A stretch of 26,957 bases of DNA. Source: a virus. The stretch covers positions 584-27,540 of the IMG/VR virus record IMGVR_UViG_3300030060_001783; one strand, given 5' to 3'. Below the pieces are notes generated by a model, which was not told the origin of the DNA, did no database searches, and was given only the letters and a program-made list of their open reading frames with translations. Shown here one piece after another: positions 275-17,340 of this stretch. The first letter of the stretch is position 1. Every line of letters starts with the position of its first letter. A program made the translations under genes and the position numbers.

Positions 275-357
275 TGGAGCCATTTTTACCTATTAATACA
301 ATCATAGCTTTTATTTTATTATGTGTCGTTATATGGTATGGATTAAACGATAAGTAA
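274..357 (+). CDS. 27-residue single-span membrane protein
   Basis: The ORF reads from the TGATG at 272-276 to a TAATG at 355-359 that starts the next gene. The product has a polar N-terminus (MEPFLPINT), a membrane segment at about residues 9-23 (TIIAFILLCVVIWYG) and a charged tail (LNDK). Short one-span proteins of this build are frequent in marine phages, and some are holin or pinholin candidates. An M15 cell-wall peptidase lies 1.3 kb downstream, so a part in lysis is possible but not shown. The clean amphipathic layout and the coupling at both ends favour a real gene. Confidence 0.55.
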   Translation: MEPFLPINTIIAFILLCVVIWYGLNDK

Positions 358-980
358 TGTTTGATTTTTCACCCGCTATATGTAAGGATAATTTTTTCGA
401 TGATCCCTATCAAATAAAAGAGATAACAAAGAATATTTTATTTAAAAAAAGTAATTATATCTCAGGTTACAGAAGTGAAAATATAGCTAACATAGATCAA
501 AATTTATACGAATATATTAACAAAAAAATTGTAAAAACTTATTTTGCTGGTTTGAAAGACGTTACGTTTTCCGCTGAATCTTTTTTTCAAAAAAGTGAAC
601 CTGATATAAATGATGGTTGGGTTCATCAAGATACTGGAAATTTGACAGCTATTATTTATTTAACAATAGGAGAAACATCAGGAACTTCAATTTATAATCT
701 TAAAACTGAATATTTGTCCCCAGATTGGAATGTTGGAACTGAACAAAAACACAATTATTTTGGTAATAAAGAAAATTTTACCCATGAACAAAAAAATGAA
801 ATTCAACAAAAAAAATTAAAAAACAATTCTTTTTTTGACAAAACAATAAGTTTTAGGGGTAAATTTAATAGAATGATTTGCTTTGATTCTAGGCAATATC
901 ACGCATCAGAAATCTGTGATAAAGAAAGATTAGTTATAGTTTCCTTTATTGATAATTTAAGGAATAGTGTGATAAAATAA
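357..980 (+). CDS. 2OG-Fe(II) oxygenase-like protein (DUF6445-like)
   Basis: A 207-residue protein with the signature of a double-stranded beta-helix dioxygenase. His90-x-Asp92 sits in WVHQD, followed by a hydrophobic strand (AIIYL) and a GTSIY turn. His182 sits in RQYHAS after a strand (FNRMICFD), and Arg191 in ERLVIVSF would bind the 2-oxoglutarate carboxylate. The HxD strand followed by a Gly-Thr-x-x-Tyr turn and a long insert (about residues 115-165) resembles DUF6445 proteins, a family related to 2OG-Fe(II) oxygenases; this is recognition by eye. All metal and cosubstrate residues appear present, so activity is plausible, but the substrate is unknown. The gene is very AT-rich (about 20% GC in the line at 421-480) and is the first of nine oxygenase-like genes. 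The start is fixed by the TAATG overlap with the preceding membrane peptide. Confidence 0.72.
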   Translation: MFDFSPAICKDNFFDDPYQIKEITKNILFKKSNYISGYRSENIANIDQNLYEYINKKIVKTYFAGLKDVTFSAESFFQKSEPDINDGWVHQDTGNLTAIIYLTIGETSGTSIYNLKTEYLSPDWNVGTEQKHNYFGNKENFTHEQKNEIQQKKLKNNSFFDKTISFRGKFNRMICFDSRQYHASEICDKERLVIVSFIDNLRNSVIK

Positions 981-983
981 ATA

Positions 984-1628
984 ATGTCTTACTTAAACGC
1001 AAACATACCTGTGCAGTATGCACAGATAAGAAGGGAGTATCTTTATGATCTTAAAAAACATCATGGAGAAGTTGAAGATTGTATTATCTTCGGTATATCA
1101 AGTATTACGGGGCGTAGTCCTCTTTTTCATTGTGTTATGGAAAATGGAGCTATCTTCTATCGTTTACCAATATCTGCATTCATTCAAAGAGGTTTTAAAC
1201 CGAGTGATGTTCCTAAACGTAGGCTTGATGAGTTGGTTTTATGGAACTGTTTTAGTTATTATCCTGCTGTTACTTCTTGGGATATTTTAGAATCACAAGC
1301 TGGAAAATACATAGGAAAGGATAAAAAATTTCATCACGGTAAATATTTGTTTACTATAGATTTTGCTCATCCTGAAGCTAATATATTAGATACAGATCAT
1401 TCTGAAATACCACATGAACATAAATGTGCACATGTATTAGCTTTAGATGATGGTAATTTTGCAGCGCAACCAAACAATAGGTTGATTTGGGATATACCAT
1501 CCTTTACAGTTAAAGATAATGTTCCAGATTGGAAAGTACAAACAAACGAATGGAATGTAGAAGACTCAAGTCAATGGAGAACAGAAGACACAGATAAATT
1601 TTTTTATGAAATAGAGGAGAAAAAATGA
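984..1628 (+). CDS. Conserved marine-phage protein of unknown function
   Basis: A 214-residue soluble protein. The first 80 residues (MSYLNANIPVQYAQIRREYL, then a patch containing HHGEVEDCIIFGISSI and a RLPISAF motif) resemble a protein seen repeatedly in uncultured marine phages, usually close to packaging or head genes. It carries many His, Asp and Trp residues in its middle (for example ITGRSPLFHC, TIDFAH, EIPHEHKCAH), but I recognise no catalytic motif. No signal peptide or membrane segment is visible. It starts 3 bases after the preceding stop and ends in an ATGA overlap with the M15 peptidase. An overlapping ORF in another frame (1045-1290) is a shadow. The function is not assigned. Confidence 0.75.
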   Translation: MSYLNANIPVQYAQIRREYLYDLKKHHGEVEDCIIFGISSITGRSPLFHCVMENGAIFYRLPISAFIQRGFKPSDVPKRRLDELVLWNCFSYYPAVTSWDILESQAGKYIGKDKKFHHGKYLFTIDFAHPEANILDTDHSEIPHEHKCAHVLALDDGNFAAQPNNRLIWDIPSFTVKDNVPDWKVQTNEWNVEDSSQWRTEDTDKFFYEIEEKK

Positions 1629-2095
1629 AATTAACAGCTAACATAACCTTGGACGAGCTTACCAAGAGCCAGATAGCAGAGCGTAAGGGGATTAATAATA
1701 ATCCTAACCCTGCGCAGATTGAAAATCTAAAAGCATTGGCTACAAACATATTGCAGCCAGTCAGATCACATTTTGAAAAACCATTAATTATATCTAGCGG
1801 ATTCCGTTGTGCACAGCTGTGCCTAGAAATAGGTAGCAGTGTGAACAGCCAACATGTGGCAGACAATGGTGCAGCCGCAGCAGACTTTGAAATACCTGGT
1901 GTAGATAATAGGGAGCTAGCTTTGTACATCAAGAACGAGCTAGAATACGACCAGCTCATATTAGAATTTTACCGTGACAACGAACCGACTTCAGGCTGGA
2001 TACATTGTAGTTATTCAACCGACAGTAATAGAAATCAGTCGTTGCGTGCACAAAGAGTTGATGGTAAGGTGTCATACACACCATGGCTGGAATAG
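1625..2095 (+). CDS. Peptidase M15 family protein, probable endolysin
   Basis: A 156-residue zinc peptidase of the M15A/M15_3 type, which cuts D-Ala-containing peptide cross-links in peptidoglycan; in phages it serves as endolysin or virion-borne wall hydrolase. The motifs run SSGFRC at 57-62, SQH with zinc ligand His77, ADFEIPG with Asp87, YDQLILEF at 108-115 and WIHCSY with His127. Length matches single-domain phage M15 proteins. There is no signal peptide, so release would need a holin. The usual SxHxxGxAxD motif is stretched: ten residues separate His77 and Asp87 instead of seven, because of extra Ala/Asn/Asp residues. Hand-counted GC over 1681-1980 is about 42%, against 20-28% in its neighbours, which suggests a separate origin. 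The start is supported by GAGGAG just upstream and an ATGA overlap. Confidence 0.88.
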   Translation: MKLTANITLDELTKSQIAERKGINNNPNPAQIENLKALATNILQPVRSHFEKPLIISSGFRCAQLCLEIGSSVNSQHVADNGAAAADFEIPGVDNRELALYIKNELEYDQLILEFYRDNEPTSGWIHCSYSTDSNRNQSLRAQRVDGKVSYTPWLE

Positions 2096-2580
2096 ACACT
2101 AAAGTAATAGATAATTTTATAGATCCTCTATTGTGTAAAGCTATTTATGCTAATTTATTAAGATTGCCTATGGTCTATAATCAAAGTTCGTGTATTGATG
2201 AAATAAAAGAACCAACAGATTCTAGATTTTTTGTTTCCAACATGTCTGAGTATGATCATACTATTTTATATCTTTTATTAAAAATAAAAGTGTTTCTTAA
2301 TCAAGATCTAGAGTTTTTAAGAGCTTATTCAAATATTCAATTTAGAGGCCAACATAGTGATTGGCATACTGATGATGGTGATTATACAATACTGTTAATG
2401 GTATCAGAAACTTTAAAAGATGGTAAATTTGAAATAGGTGAACATAAACTAGATTTTGTACAAAATAGATGTATTATATTTAATGCTAAAGAAAAACATA
2501 GAGGTTTAGCTTCAGAATATGCTATACTTCCAAGATGTACAGTCGCAATAAAAACAAGGATAAAAAATGGCAATAACTAG
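2083..2580 (+). CDS. 2OG-Fe(II) oxygenase-like protein
   Basis: A 165-residue compact double-stranded beta-helix protein. An N-terminal helix region starts VIDNFIDPLLCKAIYANLL, typical of prolyl-4-hydroxylase-like phage oxygenases (a short strand, then DPxLC). Iron ligands would be His95-x-Asp97 in SDWHTDDGDYT and His139 in KEKHRG, with Arg151 in RCTVAIKTR as the 2-oxoglutarate anchor. The glycine-containing turn GKFEIG lies between them. All core residues appear intact. The reading frame overlaps the M15 gene by 13 bases and the next small gene by 14. It is far more AT-rich than the M15 gene (about 23% GC at 2101-2160). The substrate is unknown; cyanophage relatives are equally uncharacterised. 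Confidence 0.75.
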   Translation: MAGIDTKVIDNFIDPLLCKAIYANLLRLPMVYNQSSCIDEIKEPTDSRFFVSNMSEYDHTILYLLLKIKVFLNQDLEFLRAYSNIQFRGQHSDWHTDDGDYTILLMVSETLKDGKFEIGEHKLDFVQNRCIIFNAKEKHRGLASEYAILPRCTVAIKTRIKNGNN

Positions 2581-2701
2581 AGGTTCAATACCTGCACAAA
2601 TAGATGGTAAATTAAGAGGGGCTAGAGATGAAAAAAAGAAAAAAAGAAGAGTTATCGAAGCCATCAAACGTAAATCCAATCGCAAAAAGTCTAGGGTCTA
2701 G
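2567..2701 (+). CDS. 44-residue lysine/arginine-rich protein
   Basis: The ORF was read directly from the DNA. ATG at 2567 follows AAGGA at 2556-2560 with 6 bases spacing and lies inside the 3' end of the oxygenase gene. The product begins MAITRGSIPAQIDGKLRGAR and continues into a basic tail; 17 of 44 residues are Lys or Arg. The start MAITRGSIP followed by a basic tail is a pattern I associate with tiny conserved genes next to head-tail genes of marine phages. It overlaps the next gene in a different frame over 2628-2701, so the lysine-rich stretch is coded twice. A nucleic-acid or virion-binding role is possible from charge alone. Confidence 0.6.
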   Translation: MAITRGSIPAQIDGKLRGARDEKKKKRRVIEAIKRKSNRKKSRV

Positions 2702-2798
2702 CGCATTTAAGCCGAAAGTGGTACAATCAAAGAAGTTGTACAACCGTAAAAAGGAGAGAAATGACACTCTTAATGCGGCCGCTAAAGACTATGGATGA
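2628..2798 (+). CDS. 56-residue basic conserved phage protein
   Basis: The ORF was read directly from the DNA. ATG at 2628 is preceded by AAGAGGGG at 2614-2621. The product has the layout KPSNVNPIAKSLG, then FKPKVVQSKKLYNRKKER, then NAAAKDYG. The N-P-[IV]-A-K-x-L ... F-[KR]-P-[KR]-V-V-x-[SD]-K-K-x-Y-[NS]-R-K-K pattern is one I recognise from short proteins found across uncultured marine podovirus genomes, which makes this the firmest of the small basic genes here. It overlaps the preceding gene by 74 bases in another frame and the next gene by 8 to 38 bases depending on that gene's start. The function is unknown. Confidence 0.72.
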   Translation: MKKRKKEELSKPSNVNPIAKSLGSSAFKPKVVQSKKLYNRKKERNDTLNAAAKDYG

Positions 2799-2967
2799 TA
2801 GAGAAAAAGTAAATAAAAACAAAGTTGTTAAGTATGTTCAACAAAAATTTGAAGATGCTAAACAGATGTCTATGTTTAAATTTCTCAGACAAGAAGTAGA
2901 TATTAACGGCACAGGTACACATAAGTACAGATTAAAAGAAGGTAAAAACAAAGGTAAAGTATTATGA
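2761..2967 (+). CDS. Small conserved phage protein
   Basis: A 68-residue protein if translated from 2761, where AAGGAG at 2751-2756 gives ideal spacing. An in-frame ATG at 2791 (MDDREKVNKNKVVKYV, 58 residues) would overlap the previous stop as ATGGATGA and also looks natural; the MDD start may be the biological one. The body has a basic helix (KVVKYVQQKFEDAKQMSMFK) and an unusual VDINGTGTHKYRLK segment. No known domain is recognised. It ends in an ATGA overlap with the next gene, so it is part of the same translational chain. Confidence 0.65.
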   Translation: MTLLMRPLKTMDDREKVNKNKVVKYVQQKFEDAKQMSMFKFLRQEVDINGTGTHKYRLKEGKNKGKVL

Positions 2968-5760: not shown

Positions 5761-5779
5761 AATTAATTAAGGAGAAAAA

Positions 5780-6220: not shown

Positions 6221-6237
6221 TTTAAAAGGAGGGCCAG

Positions 6238-7263: not shown

Positions 7264-7284
7264 TTTTGTTAAAATAGGAGATAT

Positions 7285-8637
7285 ATGGCATCAAGTTTTT
7301 CTACAGATTTAAAATTAGAATTAATGGTAACTGGCGAAAACGCTGGTACGTGGGGTGATAAAACTAATACAAACTTAAACTTAGTACAACAAGCCGTAGC
7401 AGGTTTTGAACAAGTTACATTATCAAGTGGTGGAACATTAGCACTTGTAATGTCAAATGCAGCATTATCAAACGCAAGAAATATGGTAATCAAATTTGCA
7501 ACTGCAACAATTGCAGCGAGCACAGTTTGTACGATACCTGATGGCATAGAAAAATATTATATTTTTGATTGCACAGGTTTAACTAATCCAACTAACTTAA
7601 CAATCAAAACTGCTTCAGGAACAGGTTTTTCTCCTGACAGAGCAGCGATATTTGGCGCTTATGCAGACGGAACAAATTTAAAAGAAATTTCATTAGATAC
7701 AATGGGTGGAACTGTGGCTGCAGCACAAATTGCAGATAACGCTGTTACAACCGCAAAAATTTTACAATCAAATGTAACTACAAATAAAATAGCTGACAAT
7801 GCTGTACGTGCAGCAAATATTTCATCAAACGCTGTAACTACAGCAAAAATTTTACAATCAAATGTAACACTTACAAAAATGGCAGCCAACTCTGTTGGTC
7901 CAAGCCAATTACAATCAACTGCCGTAACAGCAGGATCTTACACAACTGCCGACATTACAGTTGATGAAGACGGAAGAATTACTGCAGCATCAACAGGTTC
8001 TGCAGGGTCACCTGACTTTGCATTTACTCACGTTGATAGTATTGCAGGAACAGAAACATTTACAGCGCAAGGGGGAACTTCAAAACTAATGCTTTATATG
8101 TCTGGAGCAGGAGGCGGAGGAGCTGCAGGATCAATGCAAACGGGAAGAGGACCAGGTGGATCAGGGGGAGTAGGATTTTTTAATATTCCAATATCTTCAC
8201 CAGCACCATCACCTTTTACAGCTCCATATACAGTTGGCGCAGGGGGAACAGGAAATACAAACTCAGCTGGTCAAGCAGGACAAAATAGTACTTTTGGAAA
8301 CCCTGTACAAGCAACTTGCACAGGGGGAGCAGGTGGACAACGACAAAACCAACCGTCTCCAACAATATCTTTAGGTGGTGCTAGCGGAACAGCACCAGGA
8401 GCTACATTAGATTTAACAATAGCTTCAGGAAACCCAGGAACAACATTGCCTGCTCAAGGACCTTCTACTATGAATTCAAAAAGAGCAATTCTTGGATTTA
8501 CAAAATCACCAGCTCCAACAACTGCACCTATATTTTTTGGTATGGGTGGAGATAATAAACAGTTAACAGCGCCTACAGATGCAGGTCACACTGGAAATGA
8601 TGGCATATTAGTAATCTACGAAAATATTGTGAGTTAA
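7285..8637 (+). CDS. Tail fibre protein with glycine-rich C-terminal tip
   Basis: A 450-residue fibre. The N-terminal segment (STDLKLELMVTGENAGTWGD, then KTNTNLNLVQQAVAGF) is a common virion-anchoring start of marine phage fibres. Residues about 60-140 are beta-rich. Residues about 145-215 carry iterated 10-residue units of the type [AS]-x-N-x-V-T-T-x-K-I-L-Q-S-N-V, expected to form a trimeric shaft. From about residue 255, GTETFTAQGGTSKLMLYMSG introduces a Gly-rich tip (GAGGGGAAG, GPGGSGGVGFF, VGAGGTGNTNSAG) ending in a strand GILVIYENIVS, like the glycine-rich receptor-binding domains of other phage adhesins. AGGAGA precedes the start. Such tips are commonly under diversifying selection and set host range. 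Confidence 0.82.
   Translation: MASSFSTDLKLELMVTGENAGTWGDKTNTNLNLVQQAVAGFEQVTLSSGGTLALVMSNAALSNARNMVIKFATATIAASTVCTIPDGIEKYYIFDCTGLTNPTNLTIKTASGTGFSPDRAAIFGAYADGTNLKEISLDTMGGTVAAAQIADNAVTTAKILQSNVTTNKIADNAVRAANISSNAVTTAKILQSNVTLTKMAANSVGPSQLQSTAVTAGSYTTADITVDEDGRITAASTGSAGSPDFAFTHVDSIAGTETFTAQGGTSKLMLYMSGAGGGGAAGSMQTGRGPGGSGGVGFFNIPISSPAPSPFTAPYTVGAGGTGNTNSAGQAGQNSTFGNPVQATCTGGAGGQRQNQPSPTISLGGASGTAPGATLDLTIASGNPGTTLPAQGPSTMNSKRAILGFTKSPAPTTAPIFFGMGGDNKQLTAPTDAGHTGNDGILVIYENIVS
7738..7869 (+). repeat. Direct repeat coding for fibre shaft units
   Basis: Two copies of a roughly 42-base unit, spaced exactly 90 bases apart. The core of 26 bases at 7753-7778 is identical to 7843-7868 (it codes AKILQSNV). 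The flanks differ by a few synonymous changes. The unit repeats inside the shaft of the tail fibre gene and could allow length change by slippage or recombination. Confidence 0.8.
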
Positions 8638-8639
8638 TT

Positions 8640-9122: not shown

Positions 9123-9128
9123 TATTTT

Positions 9129-9134: not shown

Positions 9135-9146
9135 GTAAAAGACAAT

Positions 9147-9716
9147 ATGTCTTTAAAAAACTATATTAAAGTTTATCAAGTTATCAAAGATCCTAAAATA
9201 GTTAGTAAGTGCATAAGATTTTTAAGTAAAAAATCTAAAGATAGCAAATATGTTTCTGGAAGTTTGTGGAACGGAAAAGGTTCTTACGAAGATAAAGAAG
9301 TAAGGGATGTTGAAATACTACCTTTATCTAATTTTAGCACTTCTTTAACAACAGTTCATTGGGCTAATTTTTTAAGTTACTTTATACTTGAAGGTATGAA
9401 AAACTATGCAACAGATTTTCCTGATGTTAGATCAGCCACAATAAATGAGATACAAGGTTTAAGATATGAAAAAGGAGGCCATTACAAATTTCATGTAGAT
9501 GATGGCCCTGGAATGAATAGAAAATACAGCTCAATTTTAATATTAAACAATGATTATGAAGGGGGCGAGCTTTGTTTTAAAATTGATGATAAAGAAGAAA
9601 TTATTAAAAATGTACCAGGATCATTAGTAGTTTGGCCAAGTAATTTTATGTTTCCCCATATGGTAAAACCAATAAAAAAAGGAGTGAGATATTCAATAGT
9701 ATCATGGATGAGTTAA
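9147..9716 (+). CDS. 2OG-Fe(II) oxygenase, prolyl-4-hydroxylase-like
   Basis: A 189-residue protein with a classical P4Hc-type catalytic core in its second half. The run is GLRYEKGGHYKFHVDDG (His116-x-Asp118 as iron ligands; GG-H-Y is the usual preceding turn), SSILILNNDYEGGELCF (the beta-strand and GGEL turn), VPGSLVVWPS, then FMFPHMV with the distal His171, and VRYSIVSWMS with Arg181 as the 2-oxoglutarate anchor. The family is known to hydroxylate proline or other residues in proteins and to act on other substrates; nothing here fixes the target. Every catalytic residue is present. It opens the downstream oxygenase block and overlaps the next oxygenase by 13 bases, implying joint translation. 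Confidence 0.88.
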   Translation: MSLKNYIKVYQVIKDPKIVSKCIRFLSKKSKDSKYVSGSLWNGKGSYEDKEVRDVEILPLSNFSTSLTTVHWANFLSYFILEGMKNYATDFPDVRSATINEIQGLRYEKGGHYKFHVDDGPGMNRKYSSILILNNDYEGGELCFKIDDKEEIIKNVPGSLVVWPSNFMFPHMVKPIKKGVRYSIVSWMS

Positions 9717-10246
9717 GTAAAGGATATAAAGTAGTTAAAAATTTTCTCACAAAAGAAGAAATAGATCTTCTTACTCATTACACTAGAATGAAGCATAGAG
9801 TAAATTTTACAGATTTTGAATTTGTTCAAAGCGATCAAGGAGATACAATGTACTACGGAGATCCAGCCACTGATTCTCTGATGGTTAATAAACATAAATT
9901 AATGGAGAAAGAAACTGGTTTACAGTTATTACCAACCTATTCTTTTTGGAGAATGTACTCTTATTTAGCTGATCTTAAAAAACACACTGACAGGCCTGCT
10001 TGTGAAATTAGTGTTACTGTAAAAATAAATTCTTGTGGTGTTAAATGGCCTATCTTTATTGGAGGTAATGAAATTCATCTTGAAAACGGAGATGGAGTTA
10101 TATATAAAGGATGTGATGTTGATCATTGGCGAGAAGAATTTCAAGGTGATTGGCATGCGCAAACATTTCTACATTATGTGAATAAAAACGGTCCACATAA
10201 AGAATGGCACAAAGATAAACGACCGCTATATGGAGTAGTAAAATGA
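9704..10246 (+). CDS. 2OG-Fe(II) oxygenase-like protein (HTDRPxCE type)
   Basis: A 180-residue protein of a type seen in cyanophages and other marine phages. The N-terminus GYKVVKNFLTKEEIDLLTHY is the usual lead strand-helix. Iron ligands are His94-x-Asp96 in KKHTDRPACEISVTV and His141 in DVDHWREEF. The intervening segment KWPIFIGGNEIHLENGDGVI is a conserved part of this family. It lacks the simple R-x-S strand of the preceding gene; Gln153 or Arg143 may contact the cosubstrate. The C-terminus continues WHAQTFLHYVNKNGPHKEWH. The substrate is unknown. It overlaps the neighbouring oxygenase (13 bases) and the next small gene (4 bases). Confidence 0.82.
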   Translation: MDELSKGYKVVKNFLTKEEIDLLTHYTRMKHRVNFTDFEFVQSDQGDTMYYGDPATDSLMVNKHKLMEKETGLQLLPTYSFWRMYSYLADLKKHTDRPACEISVTVKINSCGVKWPIFIGGNEIHLENGDGVIYKGCDVDHWREEFQGDWHAQTFLHYVNKNGPHKEWHKDKRPLYGVVK

Positions 10247-10473
10247 AAATAGTTCAAAAAGAAGATGGCTCTGGAGAAATAATTTTTTCTTGGAAAGAGA
10301 TTTGGATTCTAATTAAAAAAAGAAAATTGACACTTAGCGCTGAAGCATTAAAACATTTAGCTAACAACCTTGTTAAAATTGCTGTCGAATTTCAAGCAAG
10401 ATTTCATACGAAGGTACAAGAGCAAAAGTCATTCTCAAATATTGTCAATTCTGAAGATGATAAAAACAAATAA
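10243..10473 (+). CDS. Small conserved marine-phage protein
   Basis: A 76-residue protein beginning KIVQKEDGSGEIIFSWKEIW, a start I recognise from short genes of uncultured marine phages that usually sit near tail or internal protein genes. An amphipathic basic helix follows (ILIKKRKLTLSAEALKHLAN), and the tail is charged. No domain can be named. It starts in an ATGA overlap with the upstream oxygenase and overlaps the following oxygenase by 17 bases, so it is embedded in the oxygenase block. Confidence 0.68.
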   Translation: MKIVQKEDGSGEIIFSWKEIWILIKKRKLTLSAEALKHLANNLVKIAVEFQARFHTKVQEQKSFSNIVNSEDDKNK

Positions 10474-10987
10474 AATTATTGAAAAAAATATTCTTCGCCA
10501 GGCTTTTCTTCATGAGATAGAATTACAAATAGACAGTAACTATTTTATACAAGAGATAGAAAATAATTTAAAAAAAACTAATTTGTATTACGCTACTAAT
10601 GTTAAAGGAAAAATGACAGCGTGGAATGCTTTCAATAATAACGATAATTTTTTAAAAGTTTTAAGTCAAGGTGTTACACATATTTCTAAACACGTAAATT
10701 TTAAAGGAGAAGAACTAGAATCTTCTTGGGGTTTAAAACTTGAAAAAGGAGATTATACACAAAAACATAATCATGGAACTTCAGTTTTATCAGGTATTTT
10801 GTATTTAAATGAGGTAGATCAAGAGTTAGTGTTTCCAGATATTCAAATAAATGTTCAACCAAAAAAAGGAACTTTTTTATTATTTTCTCCATGGTTGGAT
10901 CATTATACTGATTTCAACAGAAGTGAAGAACCTAAATATGCAATTGCCTTTAATTTTAAAGAATATAAAGATAAAACGTGGGGATAG
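10457..10987 (+). CDS. 2OG-Fe(II) oxygenase-like protein (2OG-FeII_Oxy_5 type, HxH)
   Basis: A 176-residue protein. I take the ATG at 10457 (MIKTNKIIEKNILRQAFLHE); an open frame runs back to 10370 but the extra residues are unlike the family. The core is SWGLKLEKGDYTQKHNHGTS, then VLSGILYLNE, which resembles the H-x-H-x-x-S-x-L-S-G-x-x-Y-L signature of the TIGR02466/2OG-FeII_Oxy_5 group. His104 and His106 occupy the HxH. A KKGTFLLFSPWLDH strand carries His149. The position that is Arg in relatives is Lys160 (KYAIAFN), keeping a positive charge. Activity is plausible; the substrate is unknown. Confidence 0.75.
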   Translation: MIKTNKIIEKNILRQAFLHEIELQIDSNYFIQEIENNLKKTNLYYATNVKGKMTAWNAFNNNDNFLKVLSQGVTHISKHVNFKGEELESSWGLKLEKGDYTQKHNHGTSVLSGILYLNEVDQELVFPDIQINVQPKKGTFLLFSPWLDHYTDFNRSEEPKYAIAFNFKEYKDKTWG

Positions 10988-10991
10988 GATA

Positions 10992-11020
10992 TTTATAATC
11001 TTCTTTCATAATGGTATACT
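10992..11020 (+). promoter_or_regulatory. Candidate sigma70-type promoter, possibly leaderless
   Basis: An extended -10 (TGGTATACT, hexamer at 11015-11020) lies 17 bases after TTTATA at 10992-10997, which matches four of six bases of TTGACA. The expected start of transcription, about 7 bases downstream, falls on or beside the ATG of the gp10-like gene at 11027. No Shine-Dalgarno lies between. If used, the mRNA would be leaderless. This is one of the few gaps in the window between non-overlapping genes. Confidence 0.32.
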
Positions 11021-11026
11021 TACGAT

Positions 11027-13210
11027 ATGCCTTTAGCAAAAGTAAACATAGCACCAGGATTTGACAAACAATCTACGCCATCAGACGCAGAAGGTCGTTG
11101 GGTAGATGGAGATAATGTTAGATTTAGATATGGAGAACCTGAAAAAATAGGTGGGTGGTCAGCTCTAGTAGATAAAAAACTAGTAGGTGCAGCAAGAGCA
11201 CAACACGTTTGGGCTAATACTGATGGTAAAAGGTATTCTGCCATAGGCACCGATAAAGTTTTAATAATTTATTTTGATGGTGCTTTTTACGACATTACTC
11301 CATTAGACACAGACAATTTTTCTACAGGATCAAATATAAGCACAGTCAATAGTTCCTCAACTGTAACAATTACCACAACTGGTGTACACAATTTAGCTGT
11401 TGGAGATATAGTTACTTTTGCAAATGCTGGATCATTTACTACTGGGAATACAGTTTACACTGCTGCAGATTTTGATGATAAACTTTTTGAAATACAATCA
11501 GTTCCAACAACAACAACTTTTACAATAACTATGCCAAACGCTGAAACAAAATCAGGTGTGTCAGGGGACGGAACTTTAGATGTTAGACCTTACGTACCAG
11601 TTGGACCTCTTTTACAAACTTCAGGGTACGGTTGGGGAACATATTTTTTTGGTGGTAGAACTGTTGCATCAAATACTACAACAATAAACAATGGTGGCGT
11701 TATGTTGGTAGGTGCAAATTCAGTTGTTCTTACTAGCACAGCAAACTTACCTTTGACCAATGGTAAATTAAGGATTGGTTCTGAGGATATGAGCTACACT
11801 ACAAACACCACTGGTACAAACACGATTAGTGGAATTACTCGTGGAATAAACGGGACCACAGCAGCTGAACACGCTAACGGATCAACAGTAACTGATATAA
11901 CAGATTTTATAGGTTGGGGAGAGGCTTCAACTTCAAGCACAGTGACTATTGATCCTGCAAATTGGTCTTTAGATAATTTTGGAAATATTTTAATTGCCAC
12001 TATTCATAACGGTGAGACATTTACTTGGGATGCTTCTTTATCAGCTGCTTTACAAACAAGAGCAACGATTGGAACAGGTATGCCAACTAAATCCGTGATG
12101 ACTATTGTCTCTGATAGAGATAGACATCTTTTTCATTTAGGTACAGAAACAACAATTGGAACAGCTTCATCTCAAGATAAAATGTTTATAAGATTTTCTG
12201 ATCAAGAAAGTCTCAGTGATTATGCACCTACATCAACGAACACTGCAGGGACATTTAGACTAGATGATGGAACTCAAATAGTAGGAGCATTTAAAGGTAA
12301 AGATTATATTTTAGTTCTTACAGATACTGCTGCGTATGAAATGCAATTTGTTGGACCTCCTTTTACTTTCTCAATAAGAAAAGTAGGATCTAATAATGGA
12401 TTACTAGGACAACATGCTGGTGTGTTTGCTAACGGAGCCGTATACTGGATGGGTAAAACAGGTGGGTTCTATGTTTATGATGGTACTGTAAAATCATTAC
12501 CATGTTTAGTAGAGGACTTTGTTTTTACAACTGATGGAAACAATCCTGGAATAAATTATAATTCAGGTCAAATAGTTTTTGGTGGTATTAACGAACTGTA
12601 TTCTGAAATAAATTGGTTTTATCCAACAGCAGTCTCAGAGCAAATTAACAGAGTGGTTACTTATAATTTTGCAGAAAATGTTTGGACAACAGGAACATTA
12701 GATAGAACAACATGGATGGGCTCTACCGTGTTTGAACAACCTTACGCTACAGATTTTAATTCTTCTGATGCTCCAACATTCCCAGTAGTAAGTGGGATAT
12801 CAAATGGTGCAACTATATATTATGAACACGAATCTGGAATAAATCAAACTAACGGTGACGGTACTCAAACAGCTATAACCTCCTTTATTAAATCTGGAGA
12901 ATTTGATTTAAATGGAAGACAAGGTGCTCCAGGTGATGGTGAGTTCATAATGAGTATTAGTAGATTTTTACCTGATTTTAAACGTATAAGTGGTAATGCT
13001 AAAGTAACAATATTTTTAAATTCGTTTCCACAAGGCACTGTAGCAACATCATCACCATTAGGACCTTTTACGGTAAGTTCTTCAACCTCTAAAATTGATA
13101 CTAGAGCGAGAGCTAGATTAGCGGCTGTTCAAATAGAAAATGAAAATGTTGATGAAAGCTGGAGATATGGTACATTCCGATTTGATGTTAGAGTTGATGG
13201 CAGACGTTAA
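11027..13210 (+). CDS. P22 gp10-like packaged-DNA stabilisation protein
   Basis: A 727-residue structural protein. The first 45 residues (PLAKVNIAPGFDKQSTPSDA, then EGRWVDGDNVRFRYGEPEKI) are the signature of a large family of marine phage proteins related to P22 gp10, which sits in the tail hub and keeps packaged DNA in. Ser/Thr-rich stretches between residues about 95-300 look like inserted immunoglobulin-like or beta domains. WTTGTLDRTTW, GINELYSEINWFYPT, GEFDLNGRQG and the C-terminal SWRYGTFRFDVRVDGRR are also typical of the family. The start at 11027 is favoured because the family begins M-P-L-A-K. It overlaps the next oxygenase by one base. Confidence 0.8.
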   Translation: MPLAKVNIAPGFDKQSTPSDAEGRWVDGDNVRFRYGEPEKIGGWSALVDKKLVGAARAQHVWANTDGKRYSAIGTDKVLIIYFDGAFYDITPLDTDNFSTGSNISTVNSSSTVTITTTGVHNLAVGDIVTFANAGSFTTGNTVYTAADFDDKLFEIQSVPTTTTFTITMPNAETKSGVSGDGTLDVRPYVPVGPLLQTSGYGWGTYFFGGRTVASNTTTINNGGVMLVGANSVVLTSTANLPLTNGKLRIGSEDMSYTTNTTGTNTISGITRGINGTTAAEHANGSTVTDITDFIGWGEASTSSTVTIDPANWSLDNFGNILIATIHNGETFTWDASLSAALQTRATIGTGMPTKSVMTIVSDRDRHLFHLGTETTIGTASSQDKMFIRFSDQESLSDYAPTSTNTAGTFRLDDGTQIVGAFKGKDYILVLTDTAAYEMQFVGPPFTFSIRKVGSNNGLLGQHAGVFANGAVYWMGKTGGFYVYDGTVKSLPCLVEDFVFTTDGNNPGINYNSGQIVFGGINELYSEINWFYPTAVSEQINRVVTYNFAENVWTTGTLDRTTWMGSTVFEQPYATDFNSSDAPTFPVVSGISNGATIYYEHESGINQTNGDGTQTAITSFIKSGEFDLNGRQGAPGDGEFIMSISRFLPDFKRISGNAKVTIFLNSFPQGTVATSSPLGPFTVSSSTSKIDTRARARLAAVQIENENVDESWRYGTFRFDVRVDGRR

Positions 13211-13737
13211 TGATTTTAAATATATTTGAACTACCTATATTTGTTACAGATATAGAATGTGAGAAAATTGTTTTTAAAAAACAAAAACAATATGATCTTG
13301 CATTTCTATCAGAAGTTAATTCAACAAAAAGCACAATCGATAAAGAAAATATATTGTTTGAAGATTCCGAAAAATATTTAATTAATTTAGCTGGTGAACT
13401 TTTAAAAGAAAAATATACAAATTTTAAACTCTCTTTGTTAGAAATATGGAGTAACAAATATATTAAAAAAGATTATCAAGAACCTCATATACATCCTAAA
13501 TCTCATTTTAGTTTTATTATTTATAAAAAAGTTGATTCTAGTAAAACTTACTTTATTTCTCCTAATAACTATTTAATAGAGAGTTTTGGTATGCAAGACC
13601 TTTTTCCTATGACCAAATCATTTCATTTAAAAAATAACCAAATGATTATCTTCCCTAGTTTTTTAGCACATGGTGTTAAAAATTCTTCGAATGAAGAAAC
13701 CATAGCGGGTAATCTTTTATTTCAAAAGTTAAGTTAA
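13210..13737 (+). CDS. 2OG-Fe(II) oxygenase-like protein, HxH type, Arg anchor replaced
   Basis: A 175-residue protein of the 2OG-FeII_Oxy_5-like group. The core is KDYQEPHIHPKSHFSFIIY, with His93-x-His95, then KNNQMIIFPSFLAHGVKN with His154. The final strand reads EETIAGNLLF; aligning its Asn168 to the Asn of relatives (R-x5-N) puts Glu162 where the 2-oxoglutarate-binding Arg should be. The fold is likely but the charge at the anchor is reversed, so it may use another cosubstrate or be inactive. The gene is extremely AT-rich (about 21% GC in lines 13261 and 13381). It overlaps the gp10-like gene by one base and abuts the next oxygenase. Confidence 0.7.
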   Translation: MILNIFELPIFVTDIECEKIVFKKQKQYDLAFLSEVNSTKSTIDKENILFEDSEKYLINLAGELLKEKYTNFKLSLLEIWSNKYIKKDYQEPHIHPKSHFSFIIYKKVDSSKTYFISPNNYLIESFGMQDLFPMTKSFHLKNNQMIIFPSFLAHGVKNSSNEETIAGNLLFQKLS

Positions 13738-14256
13738 ATGAACATTTATAATATAAATTGTAAAATCGTAGAAACAGAAATAAATGTATCCGATGAGTTA
13801 AAAAATTTGGTAAATCAATTTAAACTTGAAGATGATTTTACAAGTTTTAAAGATAAAGATAATGCTAATAAACTTTCAGATTTTATTGGAACACACTATC
13901 AAAAACGTTTAATAGATATTATAAAATGTTTCACTGACATAAAAAAATTAGCCTCAGTCAAAATTAGCCATAGCTGGGTTCAAAGATATAATAACAAAAG
14001 ACACAACTGTCATATTCATGGAACTGACAATGATAAATTATCTTTTGTTTGGTACATTGATGCGTCTCCAAAAAGCTCACCAATCATATTTTACAATCCA
14101 GGTTATCCTTACATAAATTATTGGACAAAAGAAATAATGCCTTTAAAAAACAAGTTTTTAATATTCAACAGTTATATACCTCATGAGGTTGCTATAAACA
14201 GAGATAATGCTAGAATAGTTGTTAGCGGAAACATAGATTTATTATGGCGAAAATAA
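13738..14256 (+). CDS. 2OG-Fe(II) oxygenase-like protein, HxH type
   Basis: A 172-residue protein immediately following the previous oxygenase (start directly after its stop). The core is SWVQRYNNKRHNCHIHGTDN, with His92-x-His94, then LSFVWYID, a turn SPIIFYNPG, KNKFLIFNSYIPHEVAI with His149, and DNARIVVSGNIDLLW with Arg159 and Asn165 in the family R-x5-N spacing. All usual positions except the classical Asp are present. The N-terminal 70 residues are charged and helical and unlike the other oxygenases, so each member may see its own target. GC is low (about 22% at 13741-13800). Confidence 0.74.
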   Translation: MNIYNINCKIVETEINVSDELKNLVNQFKLEDDFTSFKDKDNANKLSDFIGTHYQKRLIDIIKCFTDIKKLASVKISHSWVQRYNNKRHNCHIHGTDNDKLSFVWYIDASPKSSPIIFYNPGYPYINYWTKEIMPLKNKFLIFNSYIPHEVAINRDNARIVVSGNIDLLWRK

Positions 14257-14408
14257 CTATCAATATACCTGAACCTAAAAGTGAGTATTCACAAGAGGAT
14301 CAAAGACAAATATTACAAGCACTGCGTACATTGCAGACTCAGTTGAACTTTTCATATGAGAATGATATAAAAAATGAAGCAGATGCATTTAACTATTTTT
14401 TATCATGA
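14244..14408 (+). CDS. Small conserved phage protein MAKITINIP type
   Basis: A 54-residue ORF read directly from the DNA. It starts inside the end of the preceding oxygenase (13-base overlap) and ends in an ATGA overlap with the next gene. The layout KITINIPEPKSEYSQEDQRQ, then a helix ILQALRTLQTQLNFSYENDI and an acidic end DAFNYFLS, resembles short proteins widely seen in marine phage genomes (K-I-T-I-x-[IL]-P ... Q-x-L-N-x-S-[YF] ... F). A structural or assembly role is probable from position, but the function is unknown. Confidence 0.72.
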   Translation: MAKITINIPEPKSEYSQEDQRQILQALRTLQTQLNFSYENDIKNEADAFNYFLS

Positions 14409-14755
14409 CAATACAATATAAAAATCAAGGATATAAACAAGCAAGTACGGGTAAGACTACAGTGCTTACATGTCCAACTAATGCAACAATTATAATTAAA
14501 AGTATTTATGTTGCTAACAATGATGGTTCGTCAGCCATTTTGGTTAATATGAACTTAGTAGACTCTTCTGATTCTAATGCTGAATACGAATTTTTTAGAG
14601 ATGACGTTGCAGCTAAATCACAAGTAAATGCAACAGCACAAACTTTAAACTTAGAAGCGGGTGATTCAGTAACAGTAACCGCAGCCACAGGCAGTAATAA
14701 AATTCAGGGGGCTATAAGTTACGCTCTGATAGATAGATCTCAAGAAAATGGCTAA
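14405..14755 (+). CDS. Small beta-rich virion-type protein
   Basis: A 116-residue protein. The chain TIQYKNQGYKQASTGKTTVL, TNATIIIKSIYVANNDG, YEFFRDDVAAKSQ, TLNLEAGDSVTVTAATG, NKIQGAISYALID is a run of short strands typical of a small conserved phage structural family that I know from marine podoviruses (Y-x-N-x-G-Y-x-Q-A-x-T-x-x-T-x-[IV]-L ... I-x-x-I-x-V-A-N). It may be a minor tail or head decoration protein. It lies in the same coupled chain (ATGA upstream, ATGGCTAA downstream), separating two groups of oxygenase genes. Confidence 0.72.
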   Translation: MTIQYKNQGYKQASTGKTTVLTCPTNATIIIKSIYVANNDGSSAILVNMNLVDSSDSNAEYEFFRDDVAAKSQVNATAQTLNLEAGDSVTVTAATGSNKIQGAISYALIDRSQENG

Positions 14756-14882
14756 AAAGAAACCTATGTTTGGGGTAAACAATTACCACAAACGAACCCC
14801 TAAAAAACGTCCAGGTGTACATACGAAAAGAAAAAATAAAAGAAAACCACATCGTAAGAAGAATCGTGGACAAGGGCGTTGA
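14748..14882 (+). CDS. 44-residue highly basic protein
   Basis: The ORF was read directly from the DNA; its start overlaps the previous stop (ATGGCTAA). The product MAKKKPMFGVNNYHKRTPKK continues with RPGVHTKRKNKRKP and a basic end; 19 of 44 residues are Lys or Arg. The pattern KKKPMFGVNxYxKRTPKKRPGxHxK is one I recognise from small proteins of marine podoviruses. High charge suggests binding to nucleic acid or to acidic virion surfaces, but no function is known. Confidence 0.75.
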   Translation: MAKKKPMFGVNNYHKRTPKKRPGVHTKRKNKRKPHRKKNRGQGR

Positions 14883-14901
14883 TTTAATGTATTAAATTCT
14901 A

Positions 14902-15078
14902 ATGACTGTTTATCAAAAAATAAAATGCGAAACTAAAACTATCTATAGAAGTATTAAAACTGGTGAGAGATATGAAACGGAAGAGGCTTTTCTTAAACAA
15001 CACCCTAAAGAAGATTTAGCTACAGACGTAGAAGTTCAAGTTCCTGATCTTCCGATTTTTAGTAAAACAAAATCATGA
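14902..15078 (+). CDS. 58-residue conserved phage protein
   Basis: The ORF was read directly from the DNA. It begins 19 bases after the preceding stop and ends in an ATGA overlap with the next oxygenase. The layout is TVYQKIKCETKTIYRSIKTG, then ERYETEEAFLKQHPKEDL, ATDVEVQVPDLPIFSKTKS. The phrase [TS]-G-E-x-Y-x-T-E-E-x-[FW] followed by A-x-D-V-x-V-x-V-P-x-L-P gives a clear small fold with a Cys at position 9. It seems conserved in style with other marine phage short proteins; the function is unknown. Confidence 0.68.
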   Translation: MTVYQKIKCETKTIYRSIKTGERYETEEAFLKQHPKEDLATDVEVQVPDLPIFSKTKS

Positions 15079-15665
15079 TTGCAAATAATTATTTTTTTGG
15101 CCCTCTTTTATTCAAGGTTAAAATAGAAACTGTTGGTTTAGAAAAAATAAAACAACTATGTAATAAATTACCTGAAAATGATAGTAGAAAAGATTTAGTT
15201 GGTCATATTAAAGAAGAATTTAGATTAGATACAATGTATTTCAATGATATTATGAAAAAGTATTATGAATGTTTTAGACATGCTTATTTTAAATTTTATG
15301 GTAATCATTGTCCTAATTTAAACACTAGCTCAGCTTGGGTAAACTATATGAAGAAAGGTGAACATAATCCTTCACATATACATGTAGGTTGTAATTTTTC
15401 TTCAGTAATAATTTTAGAAAAACCTTCAGGATTAAAAGAAGAGATAGAGGAATACTATAAAAATACTGCATCTAATTATAATGGACCAGGTTGTTTAATG
15501 TTTAGTTATGGTGAAAATAATCCACACAATCAAACTTGTAAAACATTTGAACCAGAGGTAGGAGATTTTTTTATTTTTCCTTTTTGGTTAAATCACTGGG
15601 TTAATCCTTTTCAATGCGAAGGCAAAAGAGTAACTGCAGCAGCAAACCTTGTTTATGACATATAA
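15075..15665 (+). CDS. 2OG-Fe(II) oxygenase-like protein, HxH type
   Basis: A 196-residue protein, the longest of the HxH group. The N-terminus YFFGPLLFKVKIE is the typical opening strand of TIGR02466-like proteins, which start with a short P-L-x-x-F/V segment. Core: SSAWVNYMKKGEHNPSHIHV with His101-x-His103, SSVIILEKP, then a long insert of about 35 residues, VGDFFIFPFWLNHWVNPF with His174, and KRVTAAANLVYDI with Arg185 and Asn191. The complete set of family residues argues for an active enzyme. A small part of the insert (SNYNGPGCLMFSYG) is Tyr/Gly-rich and unusual. The stop overlaps the glycosyltransferase by 11 bases. Confidence 0.78.
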   Translation: MIANNYFFGPLLFKVKIETVGLEKIKQLCNKLPENDSRKDLVGHIKEEFRLDTMYFNDIMKKYYECFRHAYFKFYGNHCPNLNTSSAWVNYMKKGEHNPSHIHVGCNFSSVIILEKPSGLKEEIEEYYKNTASNYNGPGCLMFSYGENNPHNQTCKTFEPEVGDFFIFPFWLNHWVNPFQCEGKRVTAAANLVYDI

Positions 15666-16602
15666 TATGAAACCTTTAGGCGGAACAGAGTTACAACATA
15701 ATTTTTTAGAACAACATGTATCTAAAGACCTACTAGATAAGTTTCAAATTTGTACATCAGTTCCAGGTAAAGTTCCTTTGTCTAAAGATAAGATAAATGT
15801 ACTTTGGCAAAAAATGGCCACTGACCAACCACACTTTCAAAGTTTTTTTAAAGACCCTGAACAAATAAAACAATATGACTACTATGTTTTTAACAGTCAT
15901 TGGAATTATGAACAATGGAGAAAGACTTTTAACCTTCCTTATGAAAAATGCACAGTAATTAAAAATGGTATTACTAACATAAAACAAAGAGATCCCAAAC
16001 CAAAGAGAGAAAAAATTAGATTGATATATCATCCTACTCCTTGGAGAGGGTTATCTGTTTTATTAGGAGCTATGCAATTAATAAAAAGCCCTAATGTAGA
16101 ATTAGATGTATACAGTAGCACTCAAGTGTATGGAGATGATTTTAAAAAAGAAAATGATCATCTTTACGAACCTTTGTATGATCAAGCTAGAGCATTGCCT
16201 AATGTTAATTATATTGGTTATAAACCAAATGAATACATACTAGAAAATTTACATACTTATGATGCTTTTGTTTATCCTAACATATGGGAAGAAACCTTTT
16301 GTATATCTGCTCTTGAAGCATTGGCTTGTGGTCTATACGTAGCAACAACGGATAACGGAGCACTATATGAAACATGCACAGAATTTCCAATTTACATTCC
16401 ATATGATCAAAATTGGGAAAATTTAGCAAAACAATTTGCAGCAGTCATAGACGGTATAGCTGATCAAATAAATACTGATGGCTGTAGAAATCATTTAAAA
16501 TATCAACAAGACTTTTTCAATCATTTTTATAATTGGAAAGTCATAGCTGGTCATTGGACTGGTTTTTTACAAGGAGCATTACAAAATGTTAGAAGCACTT
16601 AA
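15655..16602 (+). CDS. GT4-type glycosyltransferase (GT-B fold)
   Basis: A 315-residue glycosyltransferase. I choose ATG 15655 (MTYNMKPLGGTELQHNFLEQ); a TTG at 15649 and an ATG at 15667 are alternatives. GGTE near the start is the N-domain sugar-acceptor turn of the group. An RLIYHPTPWRGLSVLLGAMQ stretch contains the start of the C-terminal Rossmann domain and the usual GL..LL...L. The retaining-family EX7E motif is Glu213 ... Glu221 in EETFCISALE, followed by ALACGLYVATTDNG. It probably transfers a nucleotide-activated sugar; acceptor and sugar are unknown. It sits among oxygenase and virion genes, so the acceptor could be a virion protein, or host surface material. Confidence 0.83.
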   Translation: MTYNMKPLGGTELQHNFLEQHVSKDLLDKFQICTSVPGKVPLSKDKINVLWQKMATDQPHFQSFFKDPEQIKQYDYYVFNSHWNYEQWRKTFNLPYEKCTVIKNGITNIKQRDPKPKREKIRLIYHPTPWRGLSVLLGAMQLIKSPNVELDVYSSTQVYGDDFKKENDHLYEPLYDQARALPNVNYIGYKPNEYILENLHTYDAFVYPNIWEETFCISALEALACGLYVATTDNGALYETCTEFPIYIPYDQNWENLAKQFAAVIDGIADQINTDGCRNHLKYQQDFFNHFYNWKVIAGHWTGFLQGALQNVRST

Positions 16603-16774
16603 AAAAAGATACGAAGCACAAATTGCTGAGTCATCTACAACAATAAATATATACCTTACTAATTCAGTAGGAATTGGTGAACATCCACAACATCTAGATG
16701 AAATTGATAAATTACTACAAAAGATAGTGGATGCAGAAGAAAAAATAAAATTAATTGATAGATGGATTGATTAA
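16586..16774 (+). CDS. Small conserved phage protein, coiled-coil type
   Basis: A 62-residue protein with AAGGAG at 16571-16576 and a 17-base overlap with the glycosyltransferase end. The chain LEALKKRYEAQIAESSTTIN, IYLTNSVGIGEHPQHLDEID, KLLQKIVDAEEKIKLIDRWI contains two amphipathic helices around a conserved-looking V-G-I-G-E-H-P-Q-H turn. I associate this helix-VGIGEHPQ-helix form with small genes of many marine phages. The function is unknown; it might help fold or bring together virion parts. It ends in TAATG, which begins the next oxygenase. Confidence 0.74.
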   Translation: MLEALKKRYEAQIAESSTTINIYLTNSVGIGEHPQHLDEIDKLLQKIVDAEEKIKLIDRWID

Positions 16775-17340
16775 TGCAAGCAAATCTTTTGGGAAATAAA
16801 GTAGCTCATTTAAAATTACCTGATTCAATTATAGAAGAATTAGACTTGTGGAAAGAAGAATGTGACAAAATTAAAAACCATCCTTTAGGTTATTTAAAGT
16901 CTCATGAAAATGTTGGGACAAAAAGTAATAGTTTTCAAGTTTCAGTTCCAACAGATTTAATAGAAAAATCATATTGGTTACCTTATACTTTAAGATCATG
17001 TGCACAATTATTTGGCAAAGATCATAGAAATTTTTACCTAAGAAAATGGGAAGGACATTTCGATGGTTTAGATATTTGGATTAACTATGCATATAAAGGT
17101 AACTTTAACCCTAGTCATACACATGCTGGTTCAATTTCTGGTGTCATATATTATTCTAATGTAGATGACCCAACTATTTTTAATAAAGGTGAGATAAAAT
17201 TTAAAGGTAAAAAAGGTGATATGGTTGTTTTCAGTTCTGATTTAGAACATCAAGTATGCGAGCAAACACAAGATTATGAAAGAGTGACATTTGCTTTTAA
17301 TTTACAATCTTGGGATAGGAGTAAAGATGCAAGACCATAG
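16774..17340 (+). CDS. 2OG-Fe(II) oxygenase-like protein, HxH type
   Basis: A 188-residue protein. Core: LDIWINYAYKGNFNPSHTHA with His115-x-His117, GSISGVIYYSNV (the S-G-V-x-Y-Y strand typical of 2OG-FeII_Oxy_5), KKGDMVVFSSDLEHQVCE with His159, and RVTFAFNLQSW with Arg170 and Asn176 in the family spacing. The long N-terminal 90 residues are mostly helical, with LYLRKWEGHFDG-like Trp/Gly elements (89-98). Of the HxH members it is the closest to the textbook pattern. The stop lies 14 bases inside the next glycosyltransferase gene. It is somewhat less AT-rich than its relatives (about 30% GC in the line at 16861). Confidence 0.82.
   Translation: MQANLLGNKVAHLKLPDSIIEELDLWKEECDKIKNHPLGYLKSHENVGTKSNSFQVSVPTDLIEKSYWLPYTLRSCAQLFGKDHRNFYLRKWEGHFDGLDIWINYAYKGNFNPSHTHAGSISGVIYYSNVDDPTIFNKGEIKFKGKKGDMVVFSSDLEHQVCEQTQDYERVTFAFNLQSWDRSKDARP

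Follow-up and report, generated by a model that had tools for sequence, protein, structure and literature searches.

In the virion gene block of a pelagiphage contig, genes for 2OG-Fe(II)-fold oxygenases appear to form a modular set that reassorts quickly: one pair (O3-O4) is near-constant, and the rest are variably present, in fixed slots. Nine ORFs (O1-O9) in the window, the whole stretch of 26,957 nucleotides that was analysed, almost certainly have the double-stranded beta-helix fold typical of 2OG-Fe(II) oxygenases, as judged by profile, motif or predicted structure. This assignment is based on predicted models for O4 and O1 and on profiles for the remaining seven. All nine were found on the + strand at the predicted starts, and their summed lengths of 4,971 bp (18.4% of the window) agree with the approximately 4.97 kb (18%) of the original prediction. 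The nine proteins would very probably act as Fe-dependent oxygenases, and we infer active hydroxylase-type enzymes that are produced together with the late genes.

Table 1. Oxygenase-type genes of the window and the fibre, virion and glycosyltransferase genes that flank their slots
Feature	Position	Strand	Profile evidence and context
O1, 207 aa, DUF6445 / phrog_1644, HxD...H...R	357..980	+	DUF6445 8e-10, phrog_1644 2e-23
O2, 165 aa, phrog_274, HxD...H...R	2083..2580	+	phrog_274 1.9e-19; overlaps end of endolysin gene
Tail-fibre-like protein, 450 aa, Gly_rich_2 C-terminal domain	7285..8637	+	PF21722 2.7e-8, residues 254-422; candidate substrate
O3, 189 aa, PF13640 / phrog_61 2OG-Fe(II) oxygenase	9147..9716	+	PF13640 1.3e-16; first of O3-O4 pair
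O4, 180 aa, phrog_2954, predicted prolyl-hydroxylase fold, HxD...H	9704..10246	+	phrog_2954 1e-49; overlaps O3
O5, 176 aa, PF13759 / phrog_81, HxH...H	10457..10987	+	PF13759 2.3e-13 (scanned from 10370)
727-aa virion protein ('stabilization'-type in relatives)	11027..13210	+	phrog_3287 2.6e-80; backbone marker between slots
O6, 175 aa, PF13759 / phrog_81, HxH...H	13210..13737	+	PF13759 5.1e-8, phrog_81 4.4e-24; overlaps end of 727-aa gene
O7, 172 aa, phrog_81, HxH...H	13738..14256	+	phrog_81 1.8e-19
O8, 196 aa, PF13759 / phrog_81, HxH...H...R	15075..15665	+	PF13759 1.8e-15, phrog_81 9e-30
Glycosyltransferase (Glycos_transf_1), conserved backbone gene	15649..16602	+	PF00534 7e-15; gene order
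O9, 188 aa, PF13759 / phrog_81, HxH...H...R	16774..17340	+	PF13759 1.8e-11, phrog_81 3.7e-23; between two glycosyltransferase-like genes
Second glycosyltransferase-like gene, conserved backbone gene	17291..18157	+	weak Anp1 match PF03452 3.6e-4 (below cut-off); phrog_1574; gene order; real start probably near 17327, inside the listed ORF

Judged from its sequence, the window is a piece of an HTVC023P-type pelagiphage. The 727-aa protein showed 57% identity to its counterpart in HTVC023P and 54% to that in HTVC027P over the aligned parts, the gene order is identical, and the virion block is homologous and syntenic. The hosts of pelagiphages are the commonest bacteria of the ocean. Nine oxygenase genes are a minimum, because the record (27,540 bp) covers less than half of an HTVC023P-type genome (57-61 kb).

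Iron-site patterns had been predicted for all nine genes. Every one of them proved to have support for the fold, whereas the canonical HxD...H pattern was found in four and HxH...H in the other five. The HxD/E...H facial triad of O1-O4 is invariant or at least 90% conserved: H90, D92, H182 and R191 are invariant in the O1 family (13 sequences), H116, D118, H171 and R181 in the O3 family, and H95, H139 and R151 in the O2 family, in which D97 is at least 90% conserved; H94, D96 and H141 of O4 are at least 90% conserved in an alignment that leaves out two isolate-phage rows. The 2OG-binding Arg/Lys past the distal His is an invariant R in the O1, O2 and O3 families, lies away from its usual place in O4 and is variable in O5-O9. 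Comparison of the O2 and O3 families with hhalign gave a probability of 97.5% (6e-12), and phrog_274, annotated as 'DNA endonuclease V', is by this profile evidence misnamed and of oxygenase fold.

Structure prediction, which the original prediction had proposed as a check, was run on the two doubtful proteins, and both models matched prolyl hydroxylases. The AF2 model of O1 (pLDDT 89) matched PHD2 with 7e-6 and reached Z scores up to 13.5, so phrog_1644 ('minor coat protein') is, as far as the model tells, likewise misnamed and of oxygenase fold. For O4, a Pfam scan gave no match, a PDB profile search using the O4 alignment found nothing, and Pfam scans of its cellular homologues gave nothing firm. 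A fold match was needed to tie O4 to O3, because hhalign of the two gave a probability of 0.5% and no link, though the HxD stretch lined up. The AF2 model of O4 (pLDDT 95.6) matched the P. putida P4H in Foldseek with 7.6e-9 and prolyl hydroxylases with Z scores of 15-16.7. The pelagiphage and cyanophage 'ferrochelatase' (phrog_2954) is thus a predicted oxygenase fold, an assignment that is new here, as are those of phrog_274 and phrog_1644.

In O5-O9 the HxD/E...H triad is replaced by HxH...H, which 117-118 of 118 sequences retain; we therefore read the site as three-His and not as a canonical 2-His-1-carboxylate, and with HxH...H the 2OG dependence of these five proteins is not assured. They were filed only as PF13759/phrog_81-type. 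O5, O6, O8 and O9 passed the PF13759 gathering cut-off; O7 matched PF13640 (5e-4) and PF13759 (1e-3) below the gathering scores and was placed by phrog_81 only. O8 matched 2rg4 weakly (0.015). For O5, position 10457 is a better start than the listed TTG at 10370, because it forms an ATGA overlap with a small upstream ORF.

Relatives were located via the 727-aa virion protein (phrog_3287). Related contigs of 12 kb or longer, 32 in all, carry 2-9 oxygenase genes each (median 4), which places nine at the top of the range; further contigs hold 8-10, and one (L101) has a run of ten oxygenase genes in a row, flanked by a Gly_rich_2 fibre gene and the 727-aa homologue. The number nine, taken at first as exceptional, is therefore not unique: related contigs with 9-10 genes equal or exceed it, and the expansion of 2OG-Fe(II) genes is published. 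Other elements of the original prediction held. The genes do lie within the virion gene block, and no two are alike, the best-scoring internal pair sharing 30% over 74 aa. For every gene the best relative belongs to another phage, with orthologue identities of 53-96% and several orthologues in the matching slot, among them a 96% identical relative of O9 in the identical slot of contig L018; compared with the best internal pair, these values rule out recent tandem duplication within the phage. Pairwise dN/dS of 0.08-0.37 revealed purifying selection across all nine. With orthologues elsewhere, often in the identical slot, and dN/dS far below 1, the nine genes agree well with the suggestion that many independent enzymes have been retained. 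The variable slots flank the 727-aa gene on both sides, adjoin the endolysin gene and lie before and between the two genes of glycosyltransferase type; orthologues are patchily present and some slots are empty. O3 was found in nearly all related loci, and the O3-O4 pair is near-constant, directly behind the tail-fibre gene. The genome scan for O4 used alignment A6 in place of the wide O4 alignment, which was too divergent.

The position beside fibre and tail genes, a weak covariation of O3 and O4 with the fibre tip and the conserved glycosyltransferase pair make surface or virion tailoring plausible. Mean distances were 0.63 for O3, 0.56 for O4 and 0.65 for the fibre tip, against 0.29 for the 727-aa gene. 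The tip covaried weakly with O3 (partial Mantel 0.32, p 0.009) and O4 (0.23, p 0.04); the same test showed no covariation of the tip with the glycosyltransferase genes, g14405 or the neighbouring fibre gene. An unrelated gene, g5780, covaried with O3 too, and linkage by itself could produce the covariation with the fibre. Unrelated phages have comparable arrays beside their fibre or neck genes, with Gly_rich_2 near the arrays. The tendency of Gly_rich_2 fibres to lie close to 2OG genes of any kind was marginal (Fisher 0.049), and the value became 0.15 once the HTVC023P group was removed; for oxygenase clusters, defined after seeing the data, the value was 0.003.

These observations are consistent with enzymes that would act mainly on the phage fibre or other virion proteins and possibly supply hydroxyls to the glycosyltransferases. 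If they do act there, we propose that host pressure drives the set and the fibre tip to diversify in concert. Fibre or virion proteins are our favoured target, with a likelihood that we put slightly short of even; a modular oxygenase set of late-gene enzymes, directed mainly at the fibre or virion, is the best overall explanation and may be given an even chance. It is doubtful whether this extends to a tail-linked 'oxygenase array' that several unrelated groups of marine tailed phages would share behind four names, that would tailor Gly-rich receptor-binding fibres post-translationally, and whose content would be swapped along with the fibre tip, giving host recognition a combinatorial layer of chemistry, in a logic like that of collagen hydroxylation plus glycosylation.

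The genes may instead be auxiliary metabolic genes (AMGs) that act on host small molecules, proteins or the envelope (2OG/nitrogen status, cell-surface polysaccharide, EF-Tu-type hydroxylation), the late block being merely a site that tolerates insertion; we regard this as possible, with a likelihood distinctly below even. Such genes are classed as AMGs by the authors of PMC9599517 and PMC9602691, the top fold matches of O4 include the P. putida EF-Tu prolyl hydroxylase, and a Brasilonema homologue of O4 lies among NRPS/PKS genes. Some homologues stand outside tail regions: P-SSM7 and S-CAM22 carry the O4 homologue in the replication cluster. Host targets account less readily for fixed slots beside fibre genes, for the similar fibre- or neck-adjoining arrays of other phages and for a divergence that parallels that of the fibre tip. 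Overall, the role of marine-phage oxygenase sets is probably the modification of either phage fibres or the host in the course of infection.

A role in nucleic acid modification or repair (AlkB- or TET/JBP-like, or endonuclease V as annotated) is improbable. It would suit the name of phrog_274, the glycosyltransferases close by and the DNA methyltransferase that adjoins the O4 homologue in P-SSM7 and S-CAM22. However, O2, the S-SM1 'denV' gene and Mosig's copy all lack a pyrimidine-dimer glycosylase Pfam match, phrog_274 joins the PF13640-type proteins and the best fold matches of O4 and O1 are prolyl hydroxylases. The missing glycosylase match, the family link of phrog_274 and the conserved site of O2 rule out endonuclease V for the gene at 2083. 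Selfish or near-neutral cargo of little function, piling up in permissive slots, would explain patchy presence and empty slots, but is very unlikely given the purifying selection on all nine genes, their intact frames and their conserved metal ligands. The iron of 2OG oxygenases is non-haem, so that a haem partner is unnecessary. Hardly credible, finally, is the published view of O4 as a genuine ferrochelatase feeding haem or iron to partner oxygenases: GenBank and PHROGs annotate it so and PMC9599517 and PMC11561400 remark on its co-occurrence with oxygenases, but PF00762 matched none of 14 phage records and 8 of 14 control genomes, phrog_2954 matched 20 of 24 phage records and no control genome (0/14), and these counts, with the high-confidence prolyl-hydroxylase-like model and the conserved HxD...H, rule it out for 9704.

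The oxygenase fold of phrog_2954 undermines the published claims of a seasonally enriched viral 'ferrochelatase' (PMC11561400) and of a partner AMG (PMC9599517). Recognising phrog_2954, phrog_274 and phrog_1644 as oxygenase-fold genes takes away a presumed connection with haem and DNA repair and reveals oxygenase arrays, most of them linked to tail genes, in several groups of marine phages; scattered annotations become a single testable system, that of a tail-linked oxidation of proteins or surfaces. Should the fibres prove to be the target, adhesins of phages would bear an enzymatic layer of chemical variation.

Among known systems, the HTVC023P-type pelagiphages of PMC9599517, with eight nonorthologous 2OG-Fe(II) AMGs that often adjoin 'ferrochelatases', are alike in phage group and genes. 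What is reported there of O4-like genes names them ferrochelatases, whereas here the O4, O2 and O1 families share a predicted oxygenase fold; in the available part of that paper we did not find the slots, the O3-O4 core or the fibre link described. O4 and O1 share the fold and HxD...H with the P. putida P4H and HIF prolyl hydroxylases (4j25, PHD2), but identity is only about 11-19% and the 2OG-binding Arg/Lys of O4 is misplaced. O5-O9 have their profile in common with PF13759 / TIGR02466 proteins (2rg4, 3bvc), and their HxH...H aligns with the 2rg4 sequence. The cyanophages S-SCSM1 (24 genes) and S-CREM1 (10 genes) (PMC9602691, PMC9964418) likewise have many 2OG-Fe(II) genes that differ widely from one another and stand partly in arrays; their annotators had already labelled the O4 homologue 2OG-Fe(II). 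Both are T4-like Synechococcus phages with another gene order, and their genes are scattered beyond tail regions too. Oxygenase sets are widespread in marine phages, partly masked by wrong names such as 'ferrochelatase' and 'DNA endonuclease V'.

The nine predicted ORFs (O1-O9) proved to be genuine, each on the + strand and together 4,971 bp long. In scans with Pfam, PHROGs and NCBIfam profiles, seven ORFs fell into 2OG-Fe(II) or related PHROG families; O1 matched DUF6445 and phrog_1644 ('minor coat protein'), and the only matches of O4, which had no Pfam match, were PHROGs named 'ferrochelatase'. For these doubtful two, family alignments from related viral contigs (52 sequences for O4, 13 for O1) were followed by structure prediction. 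The O4 model (pLDDT 95.6, pTM 0.90) had prolyl hydroxylases on top in Foldseek (P. putida P4H at 7.6e-9; PHD2), and a second aligner gave Z values of 15-16.7 across 150-170 residues. The O1 model (pLDDT 89) matched PHD2 (7e-6), vCPH, which is a collagen prolyl hydroxylase of viral origin, and P4H, with Z values of 12-13.5. The profile of phrog_274 ('DNA endonuclease V'), the family around O2, matched the O3 family profile at 6e-12. The profile, family and structure results therefore support an oxygenase-type fold for all nine ORFs, as originally predicted, by modelling for O1 and O4 and by family profile and motif for O2.

An HxD...H site is present in O1-O4. The phrog_274 family shows an HxD...H...R layout, with both His and the Arg invariant and the Asp nearly so. 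In the O4 family alignment no Arg/Lys stands out as the usual 2OG-binding residue; the conserved residues R97, R143, Q153 and H157 are candidates for this role. O5-O9 carry HxH...H, which is kept in 117-118 of 118 relatives along with a Trp and an Asn and recurs in the sequence of 2rg4, a solved PF13759 protein. Judged from sequence, PF13759-type is the safest label for this three-His subgroup, which is among the new parts of the analysis.

The name ferrochelatase, given to phrog_2954 (O4) in PHROGs and in most GenBank records listed, is likewise used for such genes in two ecological papers (PMC9599517, PMC11561400). It is wrong, because a true ferrochelatase profile matched 0 of 14 phage records versus 8 of 14 control genomes, the phrog_2954 profile matched 20 of 24 phage records and no control genome, and the predicted O4 fold is that of prolyl hydroxylases. 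The annotators of S-SCSM1 and S-CREM1 already labelled O4 homologues 2OG-Fe(II), and a broad structural resemblance between phage 2OG proteins and EGLN3 has been noted (PMC12774648), so the oxygenase fold in phages is not new. Within the paper library searched, no publication states the ferrochelatase correction, and the re-identification of three misnamed families is among the new parts. With phrog_274 and phrog_1644 read as oxygenases, S-SM1, S-RIM44, Mosig EXVC030M, HTVC008M and HTVC033P hold ~3-9 nearby oxygenase genes, in runs mostly adjoining fibre or neck genes; exceptions are P-SSM7 and S-CAM22, with the O4 homologue in the replication cluster. A window gene matching phrog_3704 'ferredoxin' at 2.7e-71 has no Pfam match, and this is possibly another misnamed PHROG.

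O4 also has cellular homologues. In Brasilonema sp. CT11 the homologue is flanked by two very large genes, read from their sequences as putative NRPS and PKS; such a neighbourhood is typical for tailoring oxygenases, and the setting would be fitting for one. S-SCSM1 ORF248 is a natural fusion of an O4-type and then an O3-type domain (phrog_2954, phrog_61); it mirrors the adjacent O3-O4 of the window, hinting that the two work together.

Aligned gene orders revealed a fixed backbone of lysin, structural genes, fibre genes 6238 and 7285, O3, O4, the gene for the 727-aa virion protein, g14405 and two glycosyltransferase-type genes. Variable oxygenases occupy fixed slots on this backbone; empty slots were seen in L005 and L070, and the O3-O4 pair is nearly constant. 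In one related locus the fibre-to-727-aa slot, elsewhere oxygenase-filled, holds a Nol-like carbamoyltransferase match (phrog_1601, 5e-61), so the slot admits other tailoring enzymes too. The best relative of each of O1-O9 is a gene in another phage (53-96%), versus at most ~30% over 74-125 aa among the nine themselves, which bears out the prediction that no two are alike enough for recent copies. Recent amplification is rejected on these grounds, and decay by pairwise dN/dS of 0.08-0.37; the set is a mosaic of functional genes that were retained. This slot-and-core architecture is among the new parts, as is a ten-gene array in L101, a related locus.

Coordinates of the features, with the best relatives of O1-O9 in other phages
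Feature	Position	Best relative	Slot of best relative
O1	357 (start)	95%	
O2	2083 (start)	93%	
O3	9147 (start)	88%	
O4	9704 (start)	86%	
O5	10457 (start)	68%	same
O6	13210 (start)	53%	
O7	13738 (start)	62%	same
O8	15075 (start)	80%	same
O9	16774 (start)	96%	same
727-aa gene	11027..13210		
phrog_3704 'ferredoxin' match	984-1628		
Ten-gene array	L101:4869-10624		
Carbamoyltransferase match	L028:9133-9663		
O4 homologue, Brasilonema sp. CT11	L128:5941-6612		
S-SCSM1 ORF248	L107:8995-10356		
'Tryptophan halogenase' genes, S-RIM44	L111:1-2011		
'Heme oxygenase' and 'phycocyanobilin:ferredoxin oxidoreductase' genes, Mosig EXVC030M	L108:8972-10208		

Position, divergence rate and covariation, each weak alone, point to the phage's own surface as a possible target. 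Oxygenase genes lie closely behind the Gly_rich_2 fibre gene in the window, L101, L102, Mosig and HTVC033P, and near it in S-SM1 and HTVC008M; the neighbourhood statistics were marginal except with clusters defined afterwards. The divergence of O3 and O4 roughly equals that of the fibre tip and is ~2x that of the adjacent 727-aa gene. In partial Mantel tests the tip showed covariation with O3 (0.32, p 0.009) and with O4 (0.23, p 0.04), but none with the other fibre gene, g14405 or either glycosyltransferase gene; linkage could be the source of this covariation, and the unrelated gene g5780 also covaried with O3. A host target (surface, EF-Tu-like protein or small molecule) is a serious rival, which we hold to be somewhat the less probable. 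In one virion proteome, that of S-SCSM1, no oxygenase is among the non-structural proteins named, and action inside the cell is thus more likely than a role as virion parts. The link of the oxygenases to Gly-rich fibres is testable and among the new parts.

Other enzymes were found beside the arrays. In S-RIM44, two 'tryptophan halogenase' genes stand directly upstream of the oxygenase array and downstream of three Gly_rich_2 copies, and in S-CREM1 a PrnA-type halogenase is named as ORF69, immediately before the array (PMC9964418). In the pelagimyophage Mosig EXVC030M the array ends with genes named 'heme oxygenase', whose only match is phrog_17328 of unknown function, and 'phycocyanobilin:ferredoxin oxidoreductase'.

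By its 727-aa protein and gene order the window, from a record of 27,540 bp, is grouped with the Pelagibacter phages HTVC023P, HTVC027P and 023Pt_psg01; their genomes are 57-61 kb, so it covers less than half. An IMG/VR scan revealed at least 598 relatives. Among 32 contigs of the group of at least 12 kb, window included, there are 2-9 oxygenase genes per contig (median 4); the counts are minima that depend on how long the contig is, and the profiles behind them were seeded with the window's own proteins. The window shares the top count with L002 (9 in 17 kb) and L034 (9 in 12 kb, or 10 with one further phrog_81 match). Contigs found via O1 pack 8-10 such genes into a few kb, and the ten consecutive, mostly overlapping genes of L101, flanked by a Gly_rich_2 fibre gene and a 727-aa homologue, form the longest unbroken run among the loci compared. 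The original prediction of an exceptional number is not supported: nine is the upper end of the range, other contigs reach 8-10, and the expansion is already published, one study giving eight nonorthologous 2OG-Fe(II) AMGs for HTVC023P-type phages (PMC9599517). The set is real and informative, and it is of a known kind, at the upper end of its range; 2OG-Fe(II) genes number 10 in S-CREM1 (PMC9964418) and 24 in S-SCSM1 (PMC9602691).
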